In this document: positions 19,712 to 62,449 of the stretch, in pieces
Layout of the letters: the number at the start of each line of letters is the position of its first letter
How positions within the stretch are numbered: position 1 is the stretch's first letter
Assembly: GCA_027491195.1 (NCBI GenBank)
Contig: JAIXWQ010000011.1
Coordinates: forward strand, 186,001 to 250,000
Length of the DNA stretch: 64,000 nucleotides
Source: Cytophagaceae bacterium
GTDB taxonomy: Bacteria; Bacteroidota; Bacteroidia; Cytophagales; Spirosomataceae
Direction of reading: 5' to 3'
Program-made: the position numbers and the translations under genes
Notes under the pieces: model-generated
The model's database searches: none
What the model was told of the DNA's origin: nothing
The model's input: the letters and a program-made list of their open reading frames with translations, nothing else

Positions 19712-21600
19712 TATCTAGCTCTTTTGGCTAAATCTGCACGCGAAATATTCATCATACGACCCATCATTTTTGTTCCCCGATACGAAACGATGCGCATCAA
19801 TTCTGCATCCTTAGGTACGGCAACTAGACCAGAGGCTGATGGATAGTGGTTATCCGGGTAGGAATTGTCAAAGCTGTAGTGAATCTTCAATCCGGAGATT
19901 TCATTTTTCAACTCTACAAAAAGTTCTCCTTTTGAGTTCTTTGTTACCTTTACGATTGCCTCGTACATAGATGGCGCATATTTCTTATCTGCTACATCAA
20001 ATCTCGCCATATGTTCTTCTACGCGGCTAATAAAATTATCCCAGTTTTTATTTTCATTAGGCGACCATAGAGATTCGGAAATTGCCAATGCACGTGGCCA
20101 CATCATATATTGCAAGTGACGGTAATTATACAATTGCTCAGACCACATGTTTGCTTGACCGCCCTTTACTAATTTTGCATCTACTCCATCCGGAACTGGA
20201 TTGAAGGCATAAGAATCTGTTAATCGAACCGTTCTGTAAACCGGTGGTTCTAAAGCTATATCGCCTTGCATCAAGTCCACGTAAACGTTATCATTTGGTG
20301 TCATCACCACTTCATGGCCTAATTTTGCTGCTTCAACACCTCCTTTAATTCCGCGCCATGACATCACCGAGGTGCCTTTTGGCAATCCTCCTCCTTCTAA
20401 AATCTCATCCCAACCTAACATGCGCTTTCCTTTACCCGAAATAATCTTTTCCAAACGACGCACAAAATAGGCTTGCACCTCTTGTGAATTCTTCAAACCT
20501 TCTCTAGCTCTTAAAGCCAAAATCTCCGGATTCTTATCCCAGTAGTTCTTAGGGCACTCATCACCACCCATGTGGATATAGTCATACGGGAATAAACTAG
20601 CTACCTCTCCCATTACCTTATCTAAGAAAGTATATACATTTTCATTCGCTGGACATAAGGTATTATCTTGTAAAGCCTCTGGATGCCCATGAGACCAATC
20701 GATGAACGGCTCACCCGAAATCACTTCATATTTATCCGCGCCTGGCGTGCAAGAAAGTTCTGGATAAGAGGCTACCGCAGCCATCGAGTGACCCGGGACA
20801 TCAATTTCAGGAACGATATTCACAAAACGCTCTTGGCCATACTTAACCAATTCCTTGATATCTTCTTGCGTATAAAAACCACCATAGGTACGTGGCTCAT
20901 TCGGCTCAGGCTTCGAAAAAGTTGTAAAACGTCCTACTTTCTTCACGTTAAACGCCCCTTTTTTTGTCAAATTAGGATAAGACTTAATCTCAATTCTCCA
21001 ACCTTCGTCATCCGTTAAGTGAAAGTGCAAGATGTTGTATTTGTATTCCACCATATCGTCGATAAATTTCTTTACATCTTCCTTAGAGAAGAAGTGACGT
21101 GCCACATCAAACATTTGACCACGCCAAGCAAAGCGAGGGGTATCAGTGATTTGAGCATATGGAATCGTCCATTGTACGCCTTTTGCCACTAATTTTGATT
21201 CAATTTCCTTTGGTAATAATTGATATAAGGTTTGAATTCCATAAAAAAGACCAGCCAGTTTATTTGCCTTGATTTTTACGCCAGTTGAATTAACAAGTAG
21301 TTCGTATCCTTCTGCACCTAGCTTCGCATTGCTTACTAATTGCAATTGAATAGTGGCGGCCCCTACTGATTTAAGTGCCACTGGACGACCTGTAGCCACT
21401 TTTAGTTTGCCTACCAAAGTCGCATAGGCCACTTTCATCTGAGGATCAGATGGACCAGAAATTGAAATAGACGTAGGTAATGTAAACTTCCCAGCTGGAT
21501 AAGATGCCTCTGTAGGAATGGGAATAATAGACGGTTTTTGTGCTGATGATGCGTAACTTAAGCTTAAACTCAAGCATACGAGAGCAATAATTTTCTTCAT
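19711..21600 (-). CDS. Secreted beta-N-acetylhexosaminidase (GH20)
   Basis: A 629-residue enzyme with a signal peptide (1-20). An N-terminal GH20b domain (about 25-150) precedes the TIM-barrel (about 155-500), with FDVARHFFSKEDVKKFIDDM, HFHLTDDEGWRIEIKSYP and HMGGDECPK; Asp347-Glu348 is the catalytic pair for substrate-assisted hydrolysis. A small C-terminal chitobiase-type domain (KIHYSFDNSYP) follows. It releases N-acetylglucosamine or N-acetylgalactosamine from glycans, chitin or peptidoglycan fragments. The downstream nuclease gene begins on its stop codon. Confidence 0.95.
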   Translation of the reverse strand: MKKIIALVCLSLSLSYASSAQKPSIIPIPTEASYPAGKFTLPTSISISGPSDPQMKVAYATLVGKLKVATGRPVALKSVGAATIQLQLVSNAKLGAEGYELLVNSTGVKIKANKLAGLFYGIQTLYQLLPKEIESKLVAKGVQWTIPYAQITDTPRFAWRGQMFDVARHFFSKEDVKKFIDDMVEYKYNILHFHLTDDEGWRIEIKSYPNLTKKGAFNVKKVGRFTTFSKPEPNEPRTYGGFYTQEDIKELVKYGQERFVNIVPEIDVPGHSMAAVASYPELSCTPGADKYEVISGEPFIDWSHGHPEALQDNTLCPANENVYTFLDKVMGEVASLFPYDYIHMGGDECPKNYWDKNPEILALRAREGLKNSQEVQAYFVRRLEKIISGKGKRMLGWDEILEGGGLPKGTSVMSWRGIKGGVEAAKLGHEVVMTPNDNVYVDLMQGDIALEPPVYRTVRLTDSYAFNPVPDGVDAKLVKGGQANMWSEQLYNYRHLQYMMWPRALAISESLWSPNENKNWDNFISRVEEHMARFDVADKKYAPSMYEAIVKVTKNSKGELFVELKNEISGLKIHYSFDNSYPDNHYPSASGLVAVPKDAELMRIVSYRGTKMMGRMMNISRADLAKRAR

Positions 21601-21663
21601 TGAAATAGGTTTTTGTATAGCGTTAAAGTTCCATCAAAATGCAGAATATTCCAAATGGTTTTG

Positions 21664-21671
21664 TATTTTTG
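21664..21671 (+). promoter_or_regulatory. -7 box before amt
   Basis: TATTTTTG matches TAnnTTTG and ends 33 bases before the ATG at 21705. It lies inside the longer reading frame starting at 21639, which argues against that start. Confidence 0.45.
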
Positions 21672-21704
21672 AAACAAGAAGCATTATATACAAAACACAA
21701 AACC

Positions 21705-22958
21705 ATGAATGAAACCGCAACACTTGCTGCTCAGCAAGTGGAACTCACACACGCTATTGACACGGTATGGGTGGCCCTCTGCGCCGCTTTAATTTTCCAA
21801 ATGGAAGGAGGATTTGCCCTCCTAGAAGCTGGATTCGTCCGTTCTAAGAATGCCATCAGTATTATTGCCAAAGTCATGATTGATATCATGTTCGGTGGCG
21901 TTGCCTTTTATTTAGTCGGATTCGGAATTGCCTACGGTAAATCGAATGGCTATTGGGCTTTCGACACTGGGATTATGGAAGGTGATTTAGGCTTAGGTCT
22001 CACTATTTCCAACTCCCTTTTCTGGTTCATCCAAATGGGCTTCGCAGTCGCTGCCATCTCCATCGTCTCAGGAGGCGTAGCGGAGCGTATGAAAATGTGG
22101 TCGTATGCCATATATGTGGCTATTTTCAGTGCAGTCTTGTATCCTTTAGCTGCTAATTGGGTTTGGAATCCAAACGGTTGGTTAGCGCTTAGAGGATTTA
22201 ATGATTTCGCTGGATCCGCTGCGATTCATGCGATGGGCGGCTTTGCTGCCTTAGCAGGTGCGATTGTTTTAGGGCCCCGTTTAGGAAAATACAACGAGGA
22301 TGGAACGGCAAACGCGATTCCTGGCCATAACTTAACCTTATCCGCCGTAGGTGCATTTATCCTTTGGTTCGGTTGGTTCGGATTCAATCCAGGTTCTACT
22401 TTAGGAGCTGTGGGAAAATGGGATCTAATCGGGTCAGTTGCCACTAACACATTTTTAGCTTCAGCAGCGGGTGGTATAGCCACGATGCTATACACATTCA
22501 TGCGCTATAAAAAAGTAGATATCACGATGGTCATCAACGGAGTATTAGCAGGACTGGTAGCGATTACAGCTGGCTGTAATGTTGTTTCACCAGATTCAGC
22601 CTTGATTATCGGTTTCATTGCTGGAACGATTGTAGACATTGCCGTAGTGGTGGTTGATAATTTGAAAGTAGATGATCCAGTGGGAGCAGTCGCGGTTCAC
22701 GGGGTGAATGGTTTCTTCGGAACGATTGCCGTAGGTTTATTCTCCCAAAAGAATGGCTTATTTATCACAGGCGAGAGCGCTCAATTTATCACACAATTAA
22801 TCGGAGTTTCTGTCATCAGTGTTTTCTCTTTCGCTACGACTTATGCCTTATTCATGATGTTGAAAAAGACGATGGGTATTCGCTTAAGCCATAAAGCTGA
22901 ATCTGCGGGTATTGATGCCGTGGAGTTTGGAGTAGAAGCATACACCACTTTTGAATAA
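21705..22958 (+). CDS. amt: Ammonium transporter
   Basis: An inner-membrane ammonium channel of 417 residues with about 11 membrane segments. The start MNETATLAAQQVELTHAID at 21705 is preferred to an upstream ATG at 21639, because a promoter box lies between them and Amt proteins begin close to the first membrane segment (TVWVALCAALIFQMEGGFALLEAG). The Amt signature region is DFAGSAAIHAMGGFAALAG, and the pore histidines are expected in the AIHAMGG and VAVHGVNGFFG segments. A PII gene follows 18 bases downstream, the classical amtB-glnK unit. Confidence 0.95.
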   Translation: MNETATLAAQQVELTHAIDTVWVALCAALIFQMEGGFALLEAGFVRSKNAISIIAKVMIDIMFGGVAFYLVGFGIAYGKSNGYWAFDTGIMEGDLGLGLTISNSLFWFIQMGFAVAAISIVSGGVAERMKMWSYAIYVAIFSAVLYPLAANWVWNPNGWLALRGFNDFAGSAAIHAMGGFAALAGAIVLGPRLGKYNEDGTANAIPGHNLTLSAVGAFILWFGWFGFNPGSTLGAVGKWDLIGSVATNTFLASAAGGIATMLYTFMRYKKVDITMVINGVLAGLVAITAGCNVVSPDSALIIGFIAGTIVDIAVVVVDNLKVDDPVGAVAVHGVNGFFGTIAVGLFSQKNGLFITGESAQFITQLIGVSVISVFSFATTYALFMMLKKTMGIRLSHKAESAGIDAVEFGVEAYTTFE

Positions 22959-22976
22959 TAGCTAAATAAGAACGAT

Positions 22977-23318
22977 ATGAAAAAGGTAGAAGCCATTGTA
23001 AAACCATCGAAATTAAAAGCTATTCAAAAAGGCTTGATCGATGCAGATATTCCTTGTATGACCGTTGTTCCCGTTCGTGGAGCCGGTTTACAGCAAGGTT
23101 ATTCAGAAATATACCGCGGTACAGAGAAGTCGATGATCTTATTACCAAAGGTGATGATCATCTGCGTCGTAAGCGATGAAAACCTCGAAAAATGCTTAGA
23201 TGTCATCCTCGACAACGCCTCAGAGGGCAACGTAGGTGACGGAAAAATCTTCGTTTATGACGTGCAGGATGCGATTAGGATTCGTACGAAGACGAGGGGG
23301 ATTGAGGCAATTCGATAA
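22977..23318 (+). CDS. glnK: PII nitrogen regulatory protein
   Basis: A 113-residue PII signal protein that binds ATP/ADP and 2-oxoglutarate and plugs the ammonium channel. It begins MKKVEAIVKPSKL. The T-loop contains the uridylylation-type tyrosine in SEIYRG, and the C-terminal signature VGDGKIFVYDVQDAIRIRT is intact. Linkage to amt supports the GlnK role. Its stop codon is buried in a perfect 14-bp hairpin (23311-23341) at the start of a repeat element. Confidence 0.95.
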   Translation: MKKVEAIVKPSKLKAIQKGLIDADIPCMTVVPVRGAGLQQGYSEIYRGTEKSMILLPKVMIICVVSDENLEKCLDVILDNASEGNVGDGKIFVYDVQDAIRIRTKTRGIEAIR

Positions 23319-23500
23319 AAATGCGCAGCATTTTTATCGAATCGAATTAAAGAATAGAGCATAAAGAATAAAGAATAAAGTTCGATTCGCCTCCGGCGAT
23401 GAACTTTTGAAATATTAACTATACTCATCAAAAAGGGATCAAATTTCGATCCCTTTTTGATTCCATCTTTATTCTTTGTGCTTTATGCTTTGTGCTTTAA
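23311..23500. repeat. Convergent-gap element A (heptad arrays, palindrome, terminator)
   Basis: This fills the whole 178-base gap between the glnK and CrtA-like stop codons. In order it has a perfect 14-bp hairpin with loop GCA (23311-23341) covering the glnK stop; a heptad array of AAAGAAT/AGAGCAT units (23347-23380); the palindrome ATTCGCC-TCC-GGCGAT (23385-23400); TGAAATATT (23408-23416); a terminator (23430-23458); and an inverted heptad array (23467-23500) pairing with the first at 29 of 34 positions. It has the same design as elements at 26762 and 52949. No open frame of note. Confidence 0.85.
23430..23458. terminator. Terminator inside element A
   Basis: AAAAAGGGATC-AAATTTC-GATCCCTTTTT is an 11-bp perfect stem with T-runs on both strands; it serves glnK and the CrtA-like gene. 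Confidence 0.85.
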
Positions 23501-24162
23501 ATTGTAGTAATCACACGAAACCTCGTAAACATCTCCTCCGAATACCACCCAATCCTCCGCGTCTTCTTAATCATGGGCTTGTGCTCCTTACTTTTATAAG
23601 CAAAAGCATCCAGATTTTCTGACGAGTCCCAAAGACTCAGGGTAGCCTGTTCGATGAGGGGAAACTCTCCTACGCCTTTGGCAAATAATAATCCTACTCT
23701 ATTTTCTAAGTATTTACTGGCGTGAGATACATAAAACCAGAAGATGGGCGATTTATACCAAACGATACTCGCACGAGTCATCACTAAAAGCGGTCCATTT
23801 CCAGGATCTTCCACAATAGAAAAAGGATTCGATCCATTCCAAGTTCCATGCCCTTTTATGGCAACGGCATCCCAGCCTTTTATAGCGGATGAATTTGATG
23901 AAAGGGTCAACCAGCGCTCGTTTGAGGCAAAAAAATGATCTGATGCGGCTTGGTTATTAAAGACACCTAGAAAGGCATACGAGGAAAAATCTGGCCAAAT
24001 AGAGAATCCGTTGCCAGCTCCTACACCTAAATGTTTGGCAAAAGAAAGTCCTTCGGATTTCCAGCTTTGGACAAATGAGCGACCCATTTCTGCAAAGGCA
24101 AAACGCTTGTTTGAGAAGCCTTCAAAGGATAAAAATCGAAAGGAAATAATTTGTTCGCTCAT
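23497..24162 (-). CDS. Spheroidene monooxygenase (CrtA)-like protein
   Basis: A 221-residue protein. The C-terminal third matches the CrtA pattern: FAKGVGEFPLIEQATLSLWDS, then LDAFAYKSKEHKPMIKKTR and GWYSEEMFTRFRV. The start has MSEQIISFRFLSFEGF followed by AFAEMG, also as in CrtA. CrtA enzymes are heme-dependent oxygenases that put keto groups on carotenoids; the family includes many proteins of unknown substrate in Bacteroidota. No other carotenoid gene lies in the window. Its stop falls in the heptad array of element A. Function is inferred. Confidence 0.72.
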   Translation of the reverse strand: MSEQIISFRFLSFEGFSNKRFAFAEMGRSFVQSWKSEGLSFAKHLGVGAGNGFSIWPDFSSYAFLGVFNNQAASDHFFASNERWLTLSSNSSAIKGWDAVAIKGHGTWNGSNPFSIVEDPGNGPLLVMTRASIVWYKSPIFWFYVSHASKYLENRVGLLFAKGVGEFPLIEQATLSLWDSSENLDAFAYKSKEHKPMIKKTRRIGWYSEEMFTRFRVITTI

Positions 24163-24219
24163 TTTGTCAAATTTAGTCGTTTATTTGAACAATTAAAGCG
24201 TTAGTCGGGTTTAAAAGAC

Positions 24220-25329
24220 ATGAATAAAAAGGGATTTTATTTTAAAGAGTTTGAGGAGAAAAGCATCTCCCCTTTTGATAAGCTTTTCGGGATTTTCAAG
24301 GAATTAATCACACATACGTCGGGGGATTTTGATGAGGCAATCGAGTGGTTGCGCGAATTAGATAAGGAATATGAGCTGACGGATGAGAATTATACCATTG
24401 AGGATTTTATTGAAGATTTAAAAGCTAAAGGTTATATCCGCGAGGAGATAGATGAGAATGGAGGTTCTGGGATGGGTATTACGGCCAAAACAGAAAGGGC
24501 AATTCGCCAGACAGCTTTGGAGAATATCTTCGGAAACCTAAATAAAAGCGGTGCTGGCAATCACAAAACCAAAGCATCCGGCCAAGGGGATGAATTGACG
24601 GGGGAATTTAGGTCGTATCATTTTGGCGATAGTCTAGAGAAAATCTCACTTACGGAGAGTTTAAAAAATGCCCAAATCAATCACGGTATAGGCGAATTCG
24701 AGTTAACGGAGGAGGATTTAGTGGTAGAAGATACACAGTATAAATCCCAGATGAGTACCGTGTTAATGATTGACATTAGCCACTCCATGATTCTGTATGG
24801 GGAGGATAGAATTACGCCGGCGAAGAAAGTGGCGATGGCTTTGGCAGAACTCATCACAACCCGCTACCCAAAAGATACCATCGATATTCTGGTTTTCGGA
24901 AACGATGCCTGGAGCATTTCCATTAAAGATATTCCCTATCTAAAAGTAGGACCATACCACACGAATACGGTGGCTGGACTGCAATTAGCGATGGATATTC
25001 TGCGCAGAAAGCGAAATACCAACAAACAGATATTTATGATTACCGACGGAAAACCGAGCTGTGTTCGGGAAAAAGACGGTACCTATTATATGAACAGTAA
25101 TGGCCTAGACCCCTATGTGACCGAAAAATGTTATACACAGGCGGCTCAGGCACGTAAATTACACATTCCCATCACCACCTTCATGATCGCACGCGATTCC
25201 TATCTACAACAATTTGTGGATAAGTTCACAGAAGCAAATCAAGGAAAAGCCTTCTACACGGGTTTAAAGGGTTTAGGTGAAATGATTTTTCAAGATTACG
25301 AAACGAATAGAAAGAAAAGACTGAAATAA
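24220..25329 (+). CDS. VWA-domain protein, partner of a MoxR-type ATPase
   Basis: A 369-residue cytosolic protein. The N-terminal 170 residues are rich in charged helices; a von Willebrand factor A domain occupies about 178-365. The metal-ion site DISHS is at 185-189, with TNTVAGLQLAM and MITDGKPS further on. The stop is one base before the start of the AAA+ ATPase gene, so the two form an operon, as in RavA-ViaA or MoxR-VWA pairs that act as chaperones or metal-insertion machines. The target is unknown. Confidence 0.87.
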   Translation: MNKKGFYFKEFEEKSISPFDKLFGIFKELITHTSGDFDEAIEWLRELDKEYELTDENYTIEDFIEDLKAKGYIREEIDENGGSGMGITAKTERAIRQTALENIFGNLNKSGAGNHKTKASGQGDELTGEFRSYHFGDSLEKISLTESLKNAQINHGIGEFELTEEDLVVEDTQYKSQMSTVLMIDISHSMILYGEDRITPAKKVAMALAELITTRYPKDTIDILVFGNDAWSISIKDIPYLKVGPYHTNTVAGLQLAMDILRRKRNTNKQIFMITDGKPSCVREKDGTYYMNSNGLDPYVTEKCYTQAAQARKLHIPITTFMIARDSYLQQFVDKFTEANQGKAFYTGLKGLGEMIFQDYETNRKKRLK

Positions 25330-25330
25330 G

Positions 25331-26761
25331 ATGATCAAGAATTTAGGTGAATTAAAGGCCTCAGGCTATACGAGTAAATCCATTAAAGATGAATTAAGAG
25401 ATAACCTAATCGCCCACATGGAGGCGGGAACGACCGTATTCGAAGGTGTTCACGGGTTTGAAAACTCGGTTATTCCTGAGTTAGAGCGTGCCATCTTATC
25501 TCGCCATAATATCAACTTACTAGGATTAAGAGGTCAGGCAAAAACGCGTTTAGCTCGTTTAATGGTCAACTTATTAGATGAATACATCCCCTATGTAGCT
25601 GGTTCAGAGATTAACGATGATCCTTTGGCCCCTATTTCTCGTTTCGCACAGGATTTAATCGCTGCTCAGGGAGATGCTACACCCATCGCTTGGTTACACC
25701 GCTCTGATCGCTTTGCTGAGAAATTAGCCACTCCAGATGTAACTGTAGCTGATTTAATCGGTGATGTGGATCCAATCAAAGCCGCGAATTTGAAATTATC
25801 CTATGCAGATGACCGCGTGATTCACTTTGGGATGATTCCTAGAGCAAACCGTTGCATCTTCGTGATCAATGAGATTCCAGATTTACAGGCCCGTATTCAG
25901 GTAGCTCTATTCAACATTCTTCAAGAAGGTGATATCCAAATTCGTGGTTTCAAATTGCGTTTACCACTCGATCTACAATTCATCTTCACGGCGAATCCAG
26001 AAGATTATACAAATAGAGGCAGTATTGTGACTCCTTTGAAGGACCGTATTGGCTCTCAAATTTTGACCCATTATCCGGAAAGCATTGCGATTGCGCGTAA
26101 AATTTCTGCTCAAGAGGCGCGCATTAATGCAGCACAATCTGATCGAGTTTATGTACCTAACCTAGCTTACGATTTACTAGAACAAATCATTTTCGAAGCA
26201 AGAGAAAGTGAATATATTGATTCCAAAAGTGGTGTCAGCGCACGTATGAGCATCTCGATGCTAGAAAGTTTAGTGAGTACGGCAGAAAGACGTGCCCTAT
26301 TAAATAAGGAGTCAAAAACAACTGTTCGTTTAGCAGATTTCATGGGAATCATCCCGGCCATCACAGGAAAGGTTGAATTAGTCTACGAAGGCGAACAAGA
26401 AGGCGCTGCCTTCGTTGCCGAGCAATTAATTGGCTCTGCCATCAAATCATTCTTCCCAGGCCTATTCCCCAAGATTGAAAAGCTTTCAAAGAAAATCGAA
26501 GAGAGTCCTTACGCCGTATTGATGGAAGCGGTTTATGCCGAAGGCGGTGTCGTTTTATACGATGAATGCAATGCATCGGATTATGCTTCGACTTTGAATG
26601 ATATTAAGCCGTTAGAGGATTTGATCGCTCGTTATCAACCGAATGTTGAGGCAGCTGATAAATTGTTCTTGAAGGAATTTGTGCTTTGGGCGCTGGCGGA
26701 GTATCAGAAATTGGGGAAAGAGAGGTTGACTGATGGGTTTAAGTTTAATGATTTGTTTTGA
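25331..26761 (+). CDS. MoxR/ChlI-like AAA+ ATPase
   Basis: A 476-residue ATPase. The Walker A loop GLRGQAKT is at residues 65-72. Walker B reads IFVINEIPDL, with Asn180-Glu181 where Asp-Glu is usual. The sensor region FTANPEDYTNRG and the arginine-finger region PLKDRIGSQI follow. It resembles magnesium-chelatase subunit I and MoxR proteins. It is downstream of a VWA protein and most likely remodels a protein target with it. There are no chelatase, tetrapyrrole or methanol-dehydrogenase genes next to it. The 3' end runs into repeat element B. Confidence 0.87.
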   Translation: MIKNLGELKASGYTSKSIKDELRDNLIAHMEAGTTVFEGVHGFENSVIPELERAILSRHNINLLGLRGQAKTRLARLMVNLLDEYIPYVAGSEINDDPLAPISRFAQDLIAAQGDATPIAWLHRSDRFAEKLATPDVTVADLIGDVDPIKAANLKLSYADDRVIHFGMIPRANRCIFVINEIPDLQARIQVALFNILQEGDIQIRGFKLRLPLDLQFIFTANPEDYTNRGSIVTPLKDRIGSQILTHYPESIAIARKISAQEARINAAQSDRVYVPNLAYDLLEQIIFEARESEYIDSKSGVSARMSISMLESLVSTAERRALLNKESKTTVRLADFMGIIPAITGKVELVYEGEQEGAAFVAEQLIGSAIKSFFPGLFPKIEKLSKKIEESPYAVLMEAVYAEGGVVLYDECNASDYASTLNDIKPLEDLIARYQPNVEAADKLFLKEFVLWALAEYQKLGKERLTDGFKFNDLF

Positions 26762-26946
26762 ACTGCGTAAAGAATAAAACACAAAGAATAAAGGTGGTAT
26801 CGCCTGCGGCGATTCATTCATGAAATATTTAAAACAGACCATAAAAAAAGAGAACAAAATCGTTCTCTTTTTTTATTCCTACTTTATTCTTTATTCTTTA
26901 TGCTTTACGTTTTGCAAATAATTTCTGCTGCGCAGAAATTATTTGC
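26762..26946. repeat. Convergent-gap element B (heptad arrays, palindrome, terminator)
   Basis: This fills the 177-base gap between the MoxR and mnmE stop codons. It has a heptad array (26766-26793), the palindrome ATCGCC-TGC-GGCGAT (26799-26813), TGAAATATTT (26821-26830), a terminator (26843-26874), an inverted heptad array (26882-26909; 24 of 28 positions pair with the first) and a perfect 15-bp hairpin with loop TGC (26914-26946) covering the mnmE stop. Same orientation of the palindrome and TGAAATATT as element A, but the stop hairpin is at the opposite end. Confidence 0.85.
26843..26874. terminator. Terminator inside element B
   Basis: AAAAAAAGAGAAC-AAAATC-GTTCTCTTTTTTT is a 13-bp perfect stem with T-runs on both strands. 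Confidence 0.85.
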
Positions 26947-28300
26947 CAATACAAAACTTTCCAAAAATATTCTTCAGCAAATCGTCATTCGATATTTGCC
27001 CCGTAATCTCACCAAGATGGTGCAAGGCATAACGAAGGTCTTGGGCGATTAAATCACCTGTTAAACCTGTCTTTAAGGCTACAAGAACGCCTTCTAAGGT
27101 TTCTTGCGTTTGTAAAAGCTGCTGGTAGTGGCGAAGATTAGTGACTAAAGTGCCGCTGGTACTTACTTGATCTAAACCCACCACGTTTAATAAAGCGGTT
27201 TCGAGGTCGTTTAGTCCAGAGCGGTTTTTAGCGGAGATGGCAATCAAATCCGGTATAGCCGCTTGAAATGCAGATAAATCAGTGATTTGATCCACCTTAT
27301 TCAACAACTTTATCACCGGAATATCCAGCTGACCCAGTGCTTCCACTCCAGCAGCAAAACCAACCGGAGTTTCTGAAGTGGCATCCGCCATATAAATCAC
27401 CACCTGGGCCTTCTTCACCCAAGCCTGTGTTCTCTCCACTCCTAGAGCCTCGATCACATCCGTTGTCTCGCGCAATCCAGCTGTATCGACTAAGCGAAAT
27501 TTGATTCCACCTAATGTCCATTCATCTTCTAAGCTGTCGCGCGTCGTTCCGGCGATATCCGAAACAATGGCACGATCCTCATTCAATAAGGCATTTAATA
27601 AGGTTGATTTGCCTGCATTGGGTTTACCTACGATAACAGTAGCCACCCCATTCTTAACTGCATTTCCAGTTCTGAAACTAGCCACCAAAGGGCGAATATT
27701 CGCTAATAATTGATTTACTAAGTCTTCTAAATCTTGGCGATCTGCGAACTCTACATCCTCCTCGCCGAAATCTAATTCGAGTTCGATTAGTGAAGCAAAA
27801 TGGATTAATTCTTCGCGCAAAGCGGCAAGCTCTTTCGAAAAACCTCCTCGCAATTGATGCAATGCCGCATTTTGGGCGGCGGCAGAATCAGCGGCGATGA
27901 CATCAGCAACGGCTTCAGCTTGTGCTAAGTCGAAGGCTCCGTTTAGGAAGGCACGCTGCGTGAATTCACCGGGGCGAGCGAAGCGAGCCCCTTGTTCTAC
28001 AAACAATTGAAGGATACTCTCTTGGATGAACGGGGAACCGTGGCAAGAAATTTCGACCACATTTTCCTTCGTGTAAGAGCGGGGGGCAATATATAAGCTA
28101 GCGACTACTTCGTCATAGACACGGCCTGATGACTCGATACGACCATAATGAATCGTATGAGAGGCTTGGATAGAGAGGTCTTTGGGCTGAAATACCTTAT
28201 TCACGATCTCGATCGCTCGATCTCCAGAAAGACGTATGACTCCGATCGCTCCTACCCCTGCAGGCGTAGCCAAAGCAACAATGGTATCGCTAAAATTCAT
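26939..28300 (-). CDS. mnmE: tRNA uridine-5-carboxymethylaminomethyl synthesis GTPase
   Basis: A 453-residue GTPase that with MnmG modifies U34 of tRNAs. The N-terminal domain starts DTIVALATPAGVGAIGVIRLSG, the G domain sits at about 215-375 (Walker A GKPNAGKSTLLN, switch region DIAGTTRD, DTAGLR, NKVD), and the C-terminal CIGK motif at residues 450-453 carries the catalytic cysteine. Normal length. The stop codon lies in the stem of the terminal hairpin of element B. The SCP2 gene is immediately upstream. Confidence 0.97.
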   Translation of the reverse strand: MNFSDTIVALATPAGVGAIGVIRLSGDRAIEIVNKVFQPKDLSIQASHTIHYGRIESSGRVYDEVVASLYIAPRSYTKENVVEISCHGSPFIQESILQLFVEQGARFARPGEFTQRAFLNGAFDLAQAEAVADVIAADSAAAQNAALHQLRGGFSKELAALREELIHFASLIELELDFGEEDVEFADRQDLEDLVNQLLANIRPLVASFRTGNAVKNGVATVIVGKPNAGKSTLLNALLNEDRAIVSDIAGTTRDSLEDEWTLGGIKFRLVDTAGLRETTDVIEALGVERTQAWVKKAQVVIYMADATSETPVGFAAGVEALGQLDIPVIKLLNKVDQITDLSAFQAAIPDLIAISAKNRSGLNDLETALLNVVGLDQVSTSGTLVTNLRHYQQLLQTQETLEGVLVALKTGLTGDLIAQDLRYALHHLGEITGQISNDDLLKNIFGKFCIGK

Positions 28301-28303
28301 GGA

Positions 28304-28588
28304 TTACAGTAAGTTCGTCAATTTCATTGCAACAGACATGTCGCCTGAAATTTTCACCTTACCCGTCATTACTGCCATCATGGAGTTTAAATCTCCTTTT
28401 AAAATAGAAGTAAAGGTTTCTTCCGTCGTCGAGATTGTGCAATCTGAATCTAAATTCTCATTAGAAACAGATCCATCAGCTCCTACAACAATAATTCCAC
28501 CTGGGAAAGCAAATTTAAATGAGACTCCTTGGCCACCTTTTTCAGCAGCTAAAGCAATAATACGTTCGTTGATTTCTTGAAATGTCAT
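28304..28588 (-). CDS. SCP2 sterol-binding-like protein
   Basis: A 94-residue protein of the SCP2 fold, which makes a small lipid-binding pocket. The stretch GVSFKFAFPGGIIVVGADG, followed by DCTISTTEETFTSILKGDLNSMMAVMTGKVKISGDM, is the family core. The ATG at 28588 (MTFQEINERI) is chosen; a TTG seven codons upstream is less likely. The gene ends three bases before the mnmE start and is probably in one transcript with it. The ligand is unknown. Confidence 0.85.
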   Translation of the reverse strand: MTFQEINERIIALAAEKGGQGVSFKFAFPGGIIVVGADGSVSNENLDSDCTISTTEETFTSILKGDLNSMMAVMTGKVKISGDMSVAMKLTNLL

Positions 28589-28630
28589 GATTATATAATT
28601 AAAGGTCAAAAATAAGTCATTTTCATCAAA

Positions 28631-31456
28631 CTACACGTTTCGATGGCAAATTGAGGTGAAATCACAGTAGGTACATTGATCCATATTGACCGTTTTCTCA
28701 AAAACGGAATCCGTTGAGACGAGTTTATTCACCCAAAAACTGACTACCTCTTCCGATTCTTGTAAAAATGCCTCGACTGATTCTCCTTCAGAAAATTCCA
28801 AAGAGCTAGAGATAAGTTTGCCTGCAAAGTTTCGGAAAGATATGATTCCAGGCTCTAATTCAATCCTATCCGAGGGTAGGCTTCGCAAAAATTCGTTTCG
28901 ATCCGCTGGTGTTTTTTGTAATTCTTTGGCCACTAAAAACTTGTACATCCACAACTGAAAAAGCTTTGTCTTCAACTCCTCTTCCCGAAGCGTTTCAGCT
29001 AGACTGTCACCTGCATCCACGTCTTGTTTCACTACTTTACCCGTCTTGTAATCCACAATACGCAATACGGAGCCTCCTTTCAAATCCAAGCGATCAATCC
29101 GGCCTTTCATGCGTATGGACCACGATTCATTGCCTACAGGAACTGAAACGATTGTTTCTACTTGTTGTTCCACCGCCAGGAGTTTAATTTCCTCGGGATA
29201 CCAGGAAGCAGATTCTTCGAAGTAATTCCCTAATAAAGTTTTGGCAACCTCCTGAAGAACGTAATTAAATCCTTTTTCTATTTCGAAATTCCCCTCTCGC
29301 TCGCGAATATCCTCCATCGCTTTCTCTAAAAGTGGGGCAATCAATTCTTTTTTCTTTTCAACAGAAAGAGAACTCTCAAATCCACCGATGCTAATCAATT
29401 GCTTATCAAGCAATTCCAAGACTTTATGTACCCAAGTACCAAAAACATCAGCCCCCATCTCATCATCTCGCTGTTTTTCTTGCTGCAAATTGACGATTTG
29501 AGAGAAATAATATTTTAAGGAACAACTCGAAAATATCGCCACGGAAGAAGGGGAAAGTCCCCTTTTTTCGAGAATTCCACGGATTTGAGCAATAAGTTCT
29601 GGCGTTTTTTCGATACGTAAAGTCACTTCGTTTTCCTTTTGGACGGAAGAACTAAATTTGATGGCCGGCTCAGCTAATTTCAAATGTGGGTTCGCCTTTA
29701 CCCAGTCATACCTGATTTGGCGAATAAATCGACTCACTTCAGCCGAAGATGATTCGTTTTGGACATAGACTAGGACAACCTCCTTCGGTCTTTGCAACAG
29801 GCGGTAAAAGTGGTAACTCGTCACCGCATCTGCTTGGGTGAACGTAGGCAGTGAAAAAGCCGCCATATTCGCAATGTCGACAGGTATTAAACTTTCTCTT
29901 TTGCGCGTTCCTGGTAAACTTCCCTCATTCAAGGATAAAACAATCACGCGATCAAAATCCAAGGTTCTTGTTTCCAATAGACCCATCACATGCAAGGAAC
30001 GCTTTTCGGCACCCTCAAAGGTCAATTTTTGCTGTTGTAAAAGCTGCTTACAAAGCGCTTGACCACTTTTGACCGTAATAAACGTATGCGTCGAAGCTAA
30101 CTCTTCTAACTTATCTAAGACCGTTAAAGCTTGCAAAACGGCATGCGACTCCGCATCCCAATCGTCCTTATCCGTTTTGTATAAAATACTGTTTAATAAG
30201 CTAATCAGCGATTTTAGGAAGTCCTGAAAACTAGCATCAGCTGGAATAAATAGATTAGAATTTTCAGGAACAGTTGAAAGATATAAATCAGTTTCCTTCC
30301 AAGTAGGCAATGGAATCCCCTGCATTAAAGGATGTTCTTTCAACGATTTAAGAAAGGAGACTGGGTATTTCTCCAAAGGAACCAATGACCACCACAAGTC
30401 TATCAAAGAAAAAACCTGTGATTTCTTCAAGGAATAGCCCATCGTAATGTTCAAACGATCCTTAAATTCCCCTAAATAAGGCATCAATGAATCCAGAAGG
30501 CTCTCATCCCCTAAAACGAGTGCCACTTGCTCTAGCTCTCCGTGCTCTGCTTGCCAGGTACGAATTTGCTCTAAAGCGACAAATATCTGAGCAGATGGAT
30601 TCGCTAAAGCAAGTATTTCCACCTGTTTTGGCTTATCTACAAGATCACGACCCATCCAATGAAAGGGCCCTCGCGATAAATACGCCGGATTTGCTGGATT
30701 CGAATAGTCTCTCAACCAATTACCCGCCCGGTGGTACTTATTTTTGACGTAATATTCATCTACATCCCAAAGCGTCTGCGCCACATTCTCACGCAACAGC
30801 AAACGAATAATCGTCTCCTCCGATTTGGACAAGGCATTAAATCCGACGAAATAAATCTGCTTAAACCCAAGTGATTTACCCGCCTCTAACAGCTCCACCA
30901 ATTTACGGTAAGCTAAACCTCGATAGGTGGTTCCTTTCGCTTCTAATCGACTTTTTAGACGTATATAGACCTCTAAAAGGGAATCATATAATTTAAAATA
31001 GGCCTGCGTATTCGGTGTAATCCAACCTTCCGCCTGATCCTCCCCAAATTCCTTCCCCCATCGTTCAATCGATTTGGCCTCCGATAAAAAGGAAAACAAG
31101 GACGTAGGATCCACTAAGTAGAGATCAAGTGTGTCAAAATCCTTCAACATCAATTGACCCCAGGTAACAAATCGGTCGAAATCAATTTTAGGATCTACCT
31201 CCTTGAAACAGGCATAGGCCTCAAATAATAAGTCAATCGGATCCTCTAGAACGGAATCCGACATCTGCAGCGCAAACTCTTCAATCGTAAAAAAAGAGGG
31301 AGAAAGAAAAGGTCTATCTCCCCGAAAGGCTAACTCCTTTTTTAGGTACAGAATACCCCGTTGCGAGGGCATCACCACGGCAATATCCTTCAAACCTTCC
31401 ATGCCATGAGCCTGAAAGAGGTAATCCGCCGTTTTACCTAAAAAAGTTTCTAGCAT
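28631..31456 (-). CDS. AddB-like PD-(D/E)XK nuclease/helicase-fold protein
   Basis: A 941-residue protein starting MLETFLGKTADYLF at 31456; the longer frame overlaps the neighbouring gene and is rejected. The N-terminal 700 residues have a degenerate UvrD/AddB helicase fold with no Walker A loop; the C-terminal 240 form a RecB-type nuclease: FGTWVHKVLELL, MKGRIDRLD and IVDYKTGK (catalytic D...DxK). Cysteines in FSSCSLKYYF and C928, C931 and C937 of the tail fit the AddB iron-sulfur cluster. No AddA is in the window. Its start overlaps the GMC oxidoreductase stop by one base. Confidence 0.86.
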   Translation of the reverse strand: MLETFLGKTADYLFQAHGMEGLKDIAVVMPSQRGILYLKKELAFRGDRPFLSPSFFTIEEFALQMSDSVLEDPIDLLFEAYACFKEVDPKIDFDRFVTWGQLMLKDFDTLDLYLVDPTSLFSFLSEAKSIERWGKEFGEDQAEGWITPNTQAYFKLYDSLLEVYIRLKSRLEAKGTTYRGLAYRKLVELLEAGKSLGFKQIYFVGFNALSKSEETIIRLLLRENVAQTLWDVDEYYVKNKYHRAGNWLRDYSNPANPAYLSRGPFHWMGRDLVDKPKQVEILALANPSAQIFVALEQIRTWQAEHGELEQVALVLGDESLLDSLMPYLGEFKDRLNITMGYSLKKSQVFSLIDLWWSLVPLEKYPVSFLKSLKEHPLMQGIPLPTWKETDLYLSTVPENSNLFIPADASFQDFLKSLISLLNSILYKTDKDDWDAESHAVLQALTVLDKLEELASTHTFITVKSGQALCKQLLQQQKLTFEGAEKRSLHVMGLLETRTLDFDRVIVLSLNEGSLPGTRKRESLIPVDIANMAAFSLPTFTQADAVTSYHFYRLLQRPKEVVLVYVQNESSSAEVSRFIRQIRYDWVKANPHLKLAEPAIKFSSSVQKENEVTLRIEKTPELIAQIRGILEKRGLSPSSVAIFSSCSLKYYFSQIVNLQQEKQRDDEMGADVFGTWVHKVLELLDKQLISIGGFESSLSVEKKKELIAPLLEKAMEDIREREGNFEIEKGFNYVLQEVAKTLLGNYFEESASWYPEEIKLLAVEQQVETIVSVPVGNESWSIRMKGRIDRLDLKGGSVLRIVDYKTGKVVKQDVDAGDSLAETLREEELKTKLFQLWMYKFLVAKELQKTPADRNEFLRSLPSDRIELEPGIISFRNFAGKLISSSLEFSEGESVEAFLQESEEVVSFWVNKLVSTDSVFEKTVNMDQCTYCDFTSICHRNV

Positions 31457-51796: not shown

Positions 51797-52957
51797 ATGG
51801 CGTCAAAAAGAGATTATTACGAGATATTAGGTGTTTCTAAATCCGCGTCGGAGGATGAAATCAAGAAGGCATACCGCAAAATGGCGGTCAAATACCATCC
51901 AGATAAAAACCCCGATAACAAAGAGGCTGAAGAAAAATTCAAAGAAGCTGCTGAGGCCTATGAGGTTTTAAGTAACTCCCAAAAGAAGGCACAATACGAC
52001 CGTTTCGGTCACGCTGGAATGGGTGGAGCTGCTGGCGGTGGTTTTGGCGGTGGCGGAATGAACATGGAAGACATCTTCTCGCAATTCGGAGATATCTTCG
52101 GTGGCGGAGACGATAGTCCCTTCGGCAGTTTCTTCAATCAAGGTCGTGGAGGTGGAAGACGCCAACGCAAAGGAACCGATCTACGCATCAAGTTGAAATT
52201 AAACTTAGAGGAGATCGCGAACGGGGTAGAAAAGAAAATCAAAGTAAAACGCCACGTAGCTTGTAAATCATGCTCCGGAAATGGCTCTAAGAACGGTACT
52301 GACCTAAAATCATGCGGTACTTGCCAAGGTTCAGGTCAAGTACGTCAAGTACAACAAACGATGTTAGGCCAAATGGTCACCTCTTCTACTTGCCCTCATT
52401 GTAATGGAGAAGGAAAAACGGTGGGTGCTAAATGTGGCGATTGCTTCGGAGAAGGCCGCGTTCTAGAAGAAGAAATCATCCCAATCAAAATTCCAGCAGG
52501 CGTTTCAAATGACATGCAACTATCGATGACGGGAAAAGGTAATGTCCCTCCTCGTGGCGGCGTGGCTGGTGATCTTTTAATCGTGATTGAGGAAGAAGCA
52601 CATGATTTATTACACCGCGATGGAAACAACGTCATTTTTGACTTGTACGTTAACTTCGTGGATGCAGCCTTAGGAACATCAGTAGAAGTGCCTACCATCG
52701 GTGGTAAAGCAAAGATTACCTTAGAGGCTGGAACTCAAAGCGGAAAGATCCTACGCTTAAAAGGAAAAGGGATCAAAGAATTGAATGGCTATTCCATCGG
52801 AGATCAATTAGTACACGTGAATATCTGGACGCCTAAACAAGTCACCAAAGAAGAATCGGAACTATTAGAAAAGCTTCGCTCCTCCCCTAACTTCGCCCCA
52901 CAACCTGGGAAATCGGAGAAAGGATTCTTTCATAAGGTGAGGGATATGTTTTCATAA
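51797..52957 (+). CDS. dnaJ: Chaperone protein DnaJ
   Basis: A 386-residue type I J protein. The J domain (residues 4-70) has the HPD motif in YHPDKNPD, the glycine-rich linker follows (75-125), and four zinc-binding repeats [24 protein letters not shown] and CGDCFGEG lie at about 155-220. The C-terminal substrate-binding domains follow. It works with DnaK and GrpE; dnaK is not in the window. The stop codon is in a perfect 14-bp hairpin (52949-52979) opening repeat element C. Confidence 0.96.
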
Positions 52958-53133
52958 AAAGCGATGCTTTTTATGAAAACAAAGAATAAAGAATAAAGAA
53001 TAAAGAATAGTTTAGGAATAAAAAGAGCGGCAATTGCCGCTCTTTTTATGTTCTATGAAAAAACATTTCAGAAATCATCGCCGAAGGCGAATCCAACTTT
53101 ATGCTTTATTCTTTGTGCTTTATGCTTTCTATT
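52949..53133. repeat. Convergent-gap element C (heptad arrays, palindrome, terminator; inverted relative to A and B)
   Basis: This fills the 171-base gap between the dnaJ and DUF2723 stop codons. It has a perfect 14-bp stop hairpin with loop GAT (52949-52979), four exact AAAGAAT heptads (52981-53008), a terminator that is a perfect 32-base palindrome (53018-53049), then on the other side a TGAAATGTTT-like box (53061-53070, reverse), ATCGCC-GAA-GGCGAAT (53077-53092) and an inverted heptad array (53097-53128). The reverse complement lines up with elements A and B. Confidence 0.85.
53018..53049. terminator. Terminator inside element C
   Basis: A perfect 32-base palindrome with AAAAAGAGCGGCAA on one arm and T-runs on both strands; it serves dnaJ and the DUF2723 gene. 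Confidence 0.85.
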
Positions 53134-62241: not shown

Positions 62242-62285
62242 TTAATTGAGTTTAAAATTGAAATGCAAAGATAGGAAATCTTGCT

Positions 62286-62405
62286 AAATGGTAAGTGGTA
62301 AATGGTAAATGAAAAATGAATTTTTATTGAAACTTGACCCATGTACCATATACCATTCACCATTTACCATCCAATTCACCATTTATCATTCACCATTTAC
62401 CATTT
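62286..62405. repeat. Inverted arrays of a 7-base unit AAATGGT
   Basis: The left arm (62286-62320) is five units in a row: AAATGGT, AAGTGGT, AAATGGT, AAATGAA, AAATGAA. The right arm (62342-62405), read on the other strand, holds about nine units of the same consensus (AAATGGT, GAATGAT, GAATTGG and variants). The arms are inverted and separated by about 20 bases. It lies between purL and the MocA-like gene. It shares the 7-base period with elements A-C but not the unit sequence. It is not a CRISPR array. Confidence 0.8.
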
Positions 62406-62449
62406 AAAACAAAAGCCTGTGGTCTTAACCACAGGCTTTTGTTTTAAAT
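62402..62449 (-). terminator. Long terminator hairpin of the MocA-like gene
   Basis: A 21-bp perfect stem (core AAAAGCCTGTGG with CCACAGGCTTTT) and loop TCTTAA with flanking A/T. On the minus strand it ends in a T-rich run. The stem includes the stop codon of the nucleotidyltransferase gene. Confidence 0.85.

Follow-up and report, generated by a model that had tools for sequence, protein, structure and literature searches.

The DNA analyzed here (the window) is a stretch of 64,000 nucleotides, positions 186,001 to 250,000 of a contig of 324,211 bases (C11), in a genome of 2,488,393 bases and 14 contigs (G000). Judged by the closest named relatives of its DUF2723 protein, the host is an Aquirufa-like member of the Cytophagales. 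Ten convergent gene junctions can be read from the open reading frame list of the window, and three of them hold an element of one design, in gaps of exactly 178, 177, and 171 bases, as given in a preliminary description. These gaps separate glnK from a CrtA-like gene, a MoxR-like gene from mnmE, and dnaJ from a DUF2723 gene. Pfam assigns the flanking genes to P-II, AAA ATPase (the MoxR-like gene), MnmE, DnaJ, and a TMEM260-like protein (the DUF2723 gene), with no match at 0.001 for the CrtA-like protein. The genes are mutually unrelated, as had been claimed.

In all three copies the palindrome TCGCCNNNGGCGA occurs without mismatch, followed by TGAAATATT in copies 1 and 2 and by TGAAATGTT in copy 3. 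Each copy holds a different hairpin with A- and T-tracts, and Tandem Repeats Finder reports period seven on both sides of each (23348–23380 and 23474–23498; 26768–26793 and 26882–26907; 52981–53009 and 53097–53128). All of this agrees with the preliminary description, from which the outer palindromes over stop codons were absent. Copy 1 starts with such a palindrome on the plus strand over the glnK (P-II) stop codon (23310–23342; arms 15, loop GCA), an inverted copy of the gene tail. It continues on this strand with the left heptad array (23351–23383), hairpin 1 (TCGCC TCC GGCGA; 23387–23399), and the inner motif TGAAATATT (23408–23416). A terminator-like hairpin fills the right hairpin slot (23427–23461), and the right heptad array, on the minus strand (23466–23500), extends to the stop codon of the gene at 23497–24162.

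Copy 2 has a plus-strand left heptad array (26768–26793) that is the weakest of the six, with 68% matches. Hairpin 1 (TCGCC TGC GGCGA; 26800–26812) and the inner motif TGAAATATT (26821–26829) follow on the same strand, then a terminator-like hairpin in the right slot (26841–26876), a minus-strand right heptad array (26876–26913), and an outer palindrome over the mnmE stop codon, also on the minus strand (26914–26946; arms 15, loop GCA on the mnmE strand). Copy 3 opens on the plus strand with an outer palindrome over the dnaJ stop codon (52947–52981; arms 16, loop GAT) and the left heptad array (52975–53012). Its terminator-like hairpin lies in the left slot (53018–53049), and the inner motif (TGAAATGTT; 53062–53070), hairpin 1 (TCGCC TTC GGCGA; 53078–53090), and the right heptad array (53096–53131) are on the minus strand, the last extending to the stop codon of the DUF2723/TMEM260-like gene. 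The same phenomenon is seen with another word family, AATGGTN, in inverted heptad arrays in a codirectional gap at 62281–62409.

Two features of the three copies hold in the window but less well elsewhere. Their near-equal lengths are partly luck, with other occupied convergent gaps of C11 measuring, for example, 123, 131, 166, 197, and 285 bases. The common palindrome has a stem that varies at other sites (CCCC/GGGG, CCGC/GCGG, CTCC/GGAG, AACC/GGTT, and more).

Element anatomy and hairpin slots

The anatomy of the element was drawn from 47 groups of arrays in the host genome. From a gene end inward, one usually meets heptads (with their purine-rich strand first), then a GGAAT-like link, then a small hairpin and an inner arm resembling GAATTCRTGAAATRTTT, after which the mirror image follows. 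Of the 94 arrays of at least 18 bases, a few of which are stray matches lying outside elements, the slot holds a small hairpin in 44, a terminator-like one in 18 (62 together), and none by the criterion used in 32. These 32 count against the explanation that we favor below. The terminator-like hairpins, among them those of all three window copies, combine a G+C stem, a T-tract plus an A-tract, and an RNA hairpin. Since the terminator occupies a hairpin slot, it is not separate cargo between the arms, as had been proposed. The arrays form 38 facing pairs, in the manner of terminal inverted repeats, and hairpin slots occur on both sides, in inverted orientation.

The stems of the small hairpins are compensated. 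In 38 arrays, 205 of 228 pair cells are Watson-Crick, compared to 170.3 in shuffles (SD 3.4; maximum 184 of 5000), and one pair position shows four pair types. These arrays were chosen by flanking anchor and not by pairing, from 123 matches of which 29 were dropped as too short, 18 as having terminators, and 38 as having no anchor. Selection on RNA structure could also yield such compensation. At G000:C3:176790-177516, two adjacent elements surround a small open reading frame in a duplicate-like arrangement, and their hairpins differ by compensated changes (AACC/GGTT versus ACCC/GGGT).

Predicted RNA folds of copies 1 to 3 have z scores of −11.1, −7.9, and −10.1, with a heptad stem that closes a junction with two hairpins and the outer palindrome alongside. 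Rfam has no match at or above gathering score at the copies, and in the window identifies only tmRNA and a tRNA. A simple terminator scan of 21600–29000 was not discriminating here (9 sites, with 6.8 expected from shuffles). The range contains copies 1 and 2, and the scan lists the hairpin of copy 2 only; it requires a T-run after the stem, while the T-tract of the element sits inside the stem. The elements are putative two-way terminators between convergent genes.

Triloops on the heptad strand are TNC in 23 of 40 cases and GNA in one. GNA or TNC triloops with a closing C are over-represented in intergenic DNA, making up 30 of the 84 triloop palindromes that touch it versus 7 of 184 inside open reading frames. 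A cUNCGg RNA tetraloop was considered and is ruled out by register, as CGCC TTC GGCG pairs with a triloop. Two further hairpin families were seen by eye in the gaps orthologous to C11:212761 and C11:260941 (G007 and G019; L254–L270). Their centers, like AAAATATGNCGNAGGCCATTTT and GTYGACAGGYCAAAT, are conserved, and their arms are variable but well paired, extending in some cases to gene ends.

Period seven and position relative to genes

The palindrome is found at 27 sites in the host genome versus one for its reversed control, and AAAGNAYAAAGNAYAAAG is matched 90 times forward and 87 times in reverse, versus none in either direction for its own. A fixed-spacing search for the palindrome plus TGAAATATT returned one match; this pattern is unsuitable because the distance is not constant (8, 8, and 7 bases in the three window copies). 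Self-similarity of at least 80% over 21 bases in intergenic C11 covers 1002 bases at lag 7, 930 at lag 14 (a multiple of 7), and 0 at lags 3–6, 8–13, and 15. At a looser setting there are 28 intergenic lag-7 segments on C11 versus 0 to 3 for each other lag from 4 to 12. No lag-7 segments are listed for C11:1-94000, and the majority lie beyond 200 kb of C11.

Word families that share period seven are AAAGNAY, TAGAGNN, CAGTGGN/TAGTCGN, and AATGGTN. Units are not identical: AAAG is followed by AAT (133), CAC (71), CAT (68), TAT (15), and others, mixed within arrays and drawn from one vocabulary across sites. Heptad tracts of other words occur among 73 other Bacteroidota loci (L091–L163; for example, L120, L139, L143, and L099), where lag 7 has 37 intergenic segments and every other lag between 4 and 12 has 5–25. 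In viral contigs (L277–L313), 37 stretches fit the strict AAAGNAY pattern of heptads, and the core pattern has no matches.

C11 is the sole contig read whole, and among its gaps of at least 40 bases a lag-7 segment occurs in 14 of 23 convergent, 2 of 39 codirectional, and 0 of 45 divergent gaps (convergent versus 2 of 84 non-convergent, P = 7e-10). By the same count, stretches of G019 have 8 of 15, 1 of 13, and 0 of 26, and stretches of G007 have 7 of 14, 7 of 23, and 1 of 25; the convergent bias is less clear in G007. The 47 AAAG groups of the host genome comprise 30 in convergent gaps, 12 in codirectional gaps, 2 in divergent gaps, and 3 at edges. Inverted pairs are present in seven of the 12 codirectional groups, and the symmetry therefore belongs to the element and is not a matter of one array per gene. 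The preliminary description had called for a search of the whole genome and its relatives. That search identified a dispersed family at gene ends, modular, with a strong convergent-gap bias on the contig read whole and a terminator-like hairpin; random positions or a coincidence of three copies were not borne out.

Mirrored gene tails and turnover among relatives

Perfect palindromes with arms of at least nine bases span 20 of the 708 stop codons examined. The same search found none over start codons; this control is weak, as the starts are those of a longest-ORF caller. A clear heptad signal (at least 15 of 21 matches at lag 7) follows 16 of the 20. In the three longest palindromes the arms measure 23 to 26 bases and take in 18 to 21 coding bases including the stop codon. 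In a stricter count, from a sample enriched for element sites, stop-spanning palindromes occur at 14 of 92 heptad-followed gene ends versus 4 of 599 others (P = 4e-10), and a control position 60 bases inside the gene has one in 691. The heptads start within nine bases of the palindrome end in 13 of the 14. That only 14 of the 92 ends carry a palindrome counts against a template-switch reading. GNA loops with at least two G-C pairs form very stable DNA mini-hairpins according to PMC4686876; such loops may help but are not required, since only 8 of the 20 stop-spanning palindromes have them.

Comparison with relatives ties the mirrored arms to their own genes. The mnmE tail reads GGC-AAA-TAA in G000, GGT-AAA-TAA in G019, and GGA-AAA-TAA in G030, and each right arm mirrors its own tail (TTATTTGC, TTATTTAC, and TTATTTTC, respectively). 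Mirrored tails are shorter in G002 and G007, and the hairpins of G008 and G021 exclude the tail, which speaks against template switching in these two of the seven cluster genomes compared. At dnaJ (seven compared), long tail copies in G000 and G014 mirror their own A/G difference, four others have a short hairpin, and G007 has none. At glnK, an inverted tail copy lies between terminator and heptads in G019, while in G007 the same terminator is followed directly by heptads. As their sequences read, the stop-spanning palindromes are inverted gene-tail copies that track the synonymous changes of each genome.

The core GGWATCGCCNNNGGCGATG occurs in 10 of 38 congeners and its reversed control in none of the 38. 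The carriers are the host genome and nine genomes whose longest DUF2723-protein match is 93–96% identical; a match is present in 36 of the 38, and the other congeners with one have 73–83% identity. Full-length MnmE matches agree (94–95% in the cluster versus 77–86% in others), with short partial matches reaching 91% in two outsiders and no usable match in G023, G004, and G034. The cluster of ten is defined by protein identity, without a tree, and the family is confined to this one species cluster of Aquirufa-like freshwater bacteria. A patchy distribution was considered and set aside, as 12 of 59 genomes including the host have matches, two of them by a single match, and ten of the twelve form the one cluster; the reversed control has single matches in 4 of the 59. 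Across 291 genomes of the order, a set containing none of the other nine cluster genomes, the stricter heptad pattern occurs in five (the host and four with 1 to 14 matches) and its reversed control in four.

The Y1 transposase of REP type and RAYT kind (PF01797) was searched for in 35 genomes, of which 16 have a match; G023, G027, and G030 are outside this set. No matches were found in G000, G002, G007, G008, G014, G019, or G021, and a REPIN/RAYT reading was dropped on its absence from the host. Seven congeners outside the heptad cluster have PF01797 matches, versus none of the seven cluster genomes searched. A reverse transcriptase was also rejected as the agent, as RVT_1 is present in 5 of the 38 congeners and is not cluster-wide. 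The one in the host genome (G000:C4:3957-4445; L271) sits in an open frame of more than 1000 amino acids that reads as an LTR-retroelement-like polyprotein, and this contig is perhaps misbinned eukaryotic DNA.

Sites are largely fixed and words change. The DUF2723/dnaJ gap was seen in seven of the ten cluster genomes, with AAAGNAY in G000, G021, and G023, AAAGNNC in G019 and G027, and TAGAGNN in G007 and G014. Outside the cluster, this gap holds other inverted heptads around a terminator in G006, G012, G059, G011, and G031, a bare terminator in G033, G005, G017, and G015, and is short in G018 and G036; in other non-cluster genomes the DUF2723 neighbor is not dnaJ. We compared by eye 17 conserved convergent gaps (at least 40 bases in at least one genome) among G000, G019, and G007. 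G000 has heptads in 10 of the 17. Of these ten, all are comparable in G019, where 8 are clearly and 1 is weakly occupied, and 8 are comparable in G007, where 7 are occupied; the gap at 263008 is empty in both relatives. The other seven gaps, without heptads in G000, lack them in the compared relatives as well. Word changes are frequent at conserved gaps but not universal: G000, G019, and G007 all have AATGGTN at gap 295114. One core is joined to both AAAG and TAGAG arrays.

The preliminary description saw in the element a mobile or recombining cassette, and mobility found no support here: no filled and empty pair with a target duplication was seen by eye in the orthologous gaps, occupied gaps are mostly the same in the two relatives, and Y1 has no match in the host. 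No autonomous partner, and no facing array pair enclosing a gene-sized open reading frame, was seen by eye among the matches listed for AAAGNAYAAAGNAYAAAG. Copying of the arms from each other also found no support, with the two arms of an element 84.5% alike versus 85.0% for arms of different elements (38 pairs, P = 0.69). Across elements, the inner-edge words show a shared pattern. The arrays conform to a genome-wide standard and not to each other.

Candidate explanations and known systems

In our judgment, there is about an even chance that the elements are a clade-specific, dispersed family of palindromic intergenic sequences at gene 3' ends, REP/BIME-like, that acts as a two-way terminator and is rewritten by template-switch errors and seven-base slippage. 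The anatomy, the period of seven, the convergent bias, the compensated hairpins, the restriction to a species cluster, the change of words, and the mirrored tails are visible in the sequence; from these we infer terminator activity, a template-switch mechanism, seven-base slippage, and a route of spread. Each half would comprise a heptad array, a GGAAT-like link, a small hairpin, and an inner arm, with its mirror image opposite, and a single strand would fold so that a heptad stem closes a two-hairpin junction. One of these hairpins carries A- and T-tracts in many copies and would there be an intrinsic terminator in both directions. The hairpin would stall replication, and the nascent strand would snap back there, copy the gene tail backwards, and then return. 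Slippage in seven-base steps would lengthen the arrays, and the sequence would stay palindromic, renewed through replication errors. The core may have spread by copying between look-alike arrays or through a transposase.

According to PMC8794818, template switching makes and repairs perfect hairpins and gives rise to perfect stems and to compensatory changes, and quasipalindrome template switching in Escherichia coli (PMC7202029) is a precedent. Template switching accounts for the local palindromes but not alone for a core dispersed across the genome. Snap-back copying does not now homogenize the heptad arms, because arms within and between elements are equally alike (84.5% versus 85.0%).

A doubtful but possible alternative is a non-autonomous MITE- or REPIN-like element, with heptad arms as inverted ends, that a transposase copies into permissive gaps and whose words differ since its subfamilies had separate periods of activity. 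In its favor are the dispersal of similar half-elements that share a core and, counted from the inner edge, a positional pattern of words, the joining of the core to AAAG and TAGAG arrays, and the restriction to one species cluster. The 30 convergent, 12 codirectional, 2 divergent, and 3 edge cases among the 47 groups would fit insertion tolerated where there is no promoter. Relatives, however, are mostly occupied at the same gaps, mirrored gene tails are not a usual product of transposition, no facing pair surrounds a gene-sized open reading frame by eye among the matches listed, and PF01797 has no matches in the host and six other cluster genomes, in a search limited to the Y1 family.

We regard it as unlikely that the element is a 3' untranslated module, a terminator with a protective stem, in which selection on RNA alone keeps the stems paired, including the arms that run into the gene tail. 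Such selection would not need the 18–21 gene-tail bases that are paired in the three longest cases, which is beyond the requirement of a terminator, and it leaves the strict period of seven and the changing words unexplained. Arms within an element also match no better than arms across elements. The compensated hairpins, the very stable folds, the position at gene 3' ends, and the terminator-like hairpins at 18 of 94 slots all speak for it.

Less probable again is a dedicated end-writing system, in which a hairpin-primed polymerase would copy the gene tail backwards and add seven-base units from a small lineage-specific vocabulary in the manner of telomerase, the dispersed cores being fixed products that insulate convergent genes. 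Mere heptanucleotide slippage beside ordinary terminators, with a coincidental layout, is already disfavored and very improbable: among the longer simple repeats of many bacteria, heptamers are the commonest class (cited in PMC4679880 and PMC4692102), and lag 7 is also in excess at other Bacteroidota loci, but the core is common to 10 of 38 congeners with the reversed control in none, hairpins are compensated, and mixed units with one vocabulary across sites would not be expected from slippage alone.

The family that we favor, rewritten by template switching and slippage, would record, naturally and in little space, the way in which palindromic terminators may arise and stay perfect. With tail copies that track each genome's own synonymous changes, template switching could be tested across species and no reporter would be needed. 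That the period of seven stays fixed while the words change bears on why heptanucleotide repeats abound among longer bacterial simple repeats. If the elements stop transcription both ways, they would form a fast-changing insulation layer between convergent genes.

REP/BIME and REPIN sequences are small, dispersed, palindromic intergenic elements, found mostly at gene 3' ends, with hairpins in inverted pairs, and the present element is like them in each of these respects. It differs in its arms of heptad arrays, the terminator-like hairpin in a slot, the words that change between species, and the absence of Y1 matches in seven cluster genomes. Bacterial MITEs have inverted terminal arms, many near-uniform copies, and no coding capacity, which is also true here, but the arms of this element are repeat arrays and the occupied gaps are mostly common to the species. 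No target duplication was seen in the by-eye comparison of orthologous gaps.

Heptanucleotide simple repeats of the STRR/LSSR type share the period of seven, the intergenic location, and the use of several words. They are described in Xanthomonas (GGGAATC) and Nostoc in PMC4692102, where most heptad repeats of Xanthomonas lie between the same genes in two species and vary in length and sequence, and TAACTGA repeats are reported from Beggiatoaceae, Cyanobacteria, and some Bacteroidetes in PMC4679880. The present arrays differ in mixing a few words around a fixed AAAG and in facing each other in inverted pairs across hairpins, for the most part in convergent gaps on the contig read whole. Template-switch and quasipalindrome mutations resemble them in the perfect inverted copies of adjacent sequence and the concerted changes of two arms, but are known as scattered events (PMC8794818, PMC7202029), whereas here the products adjoin a repeat family at many gene ends. 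Among the open-access literature matches listed, there was no element of such layout and nothing relevant on double-hairpin elements. The components resemble known kinds, and what did not appear among these listed matches is their combination: inverted heptad arms, compensated slots that possibly hold terminators, changing words with a common core, and mirrored tails.
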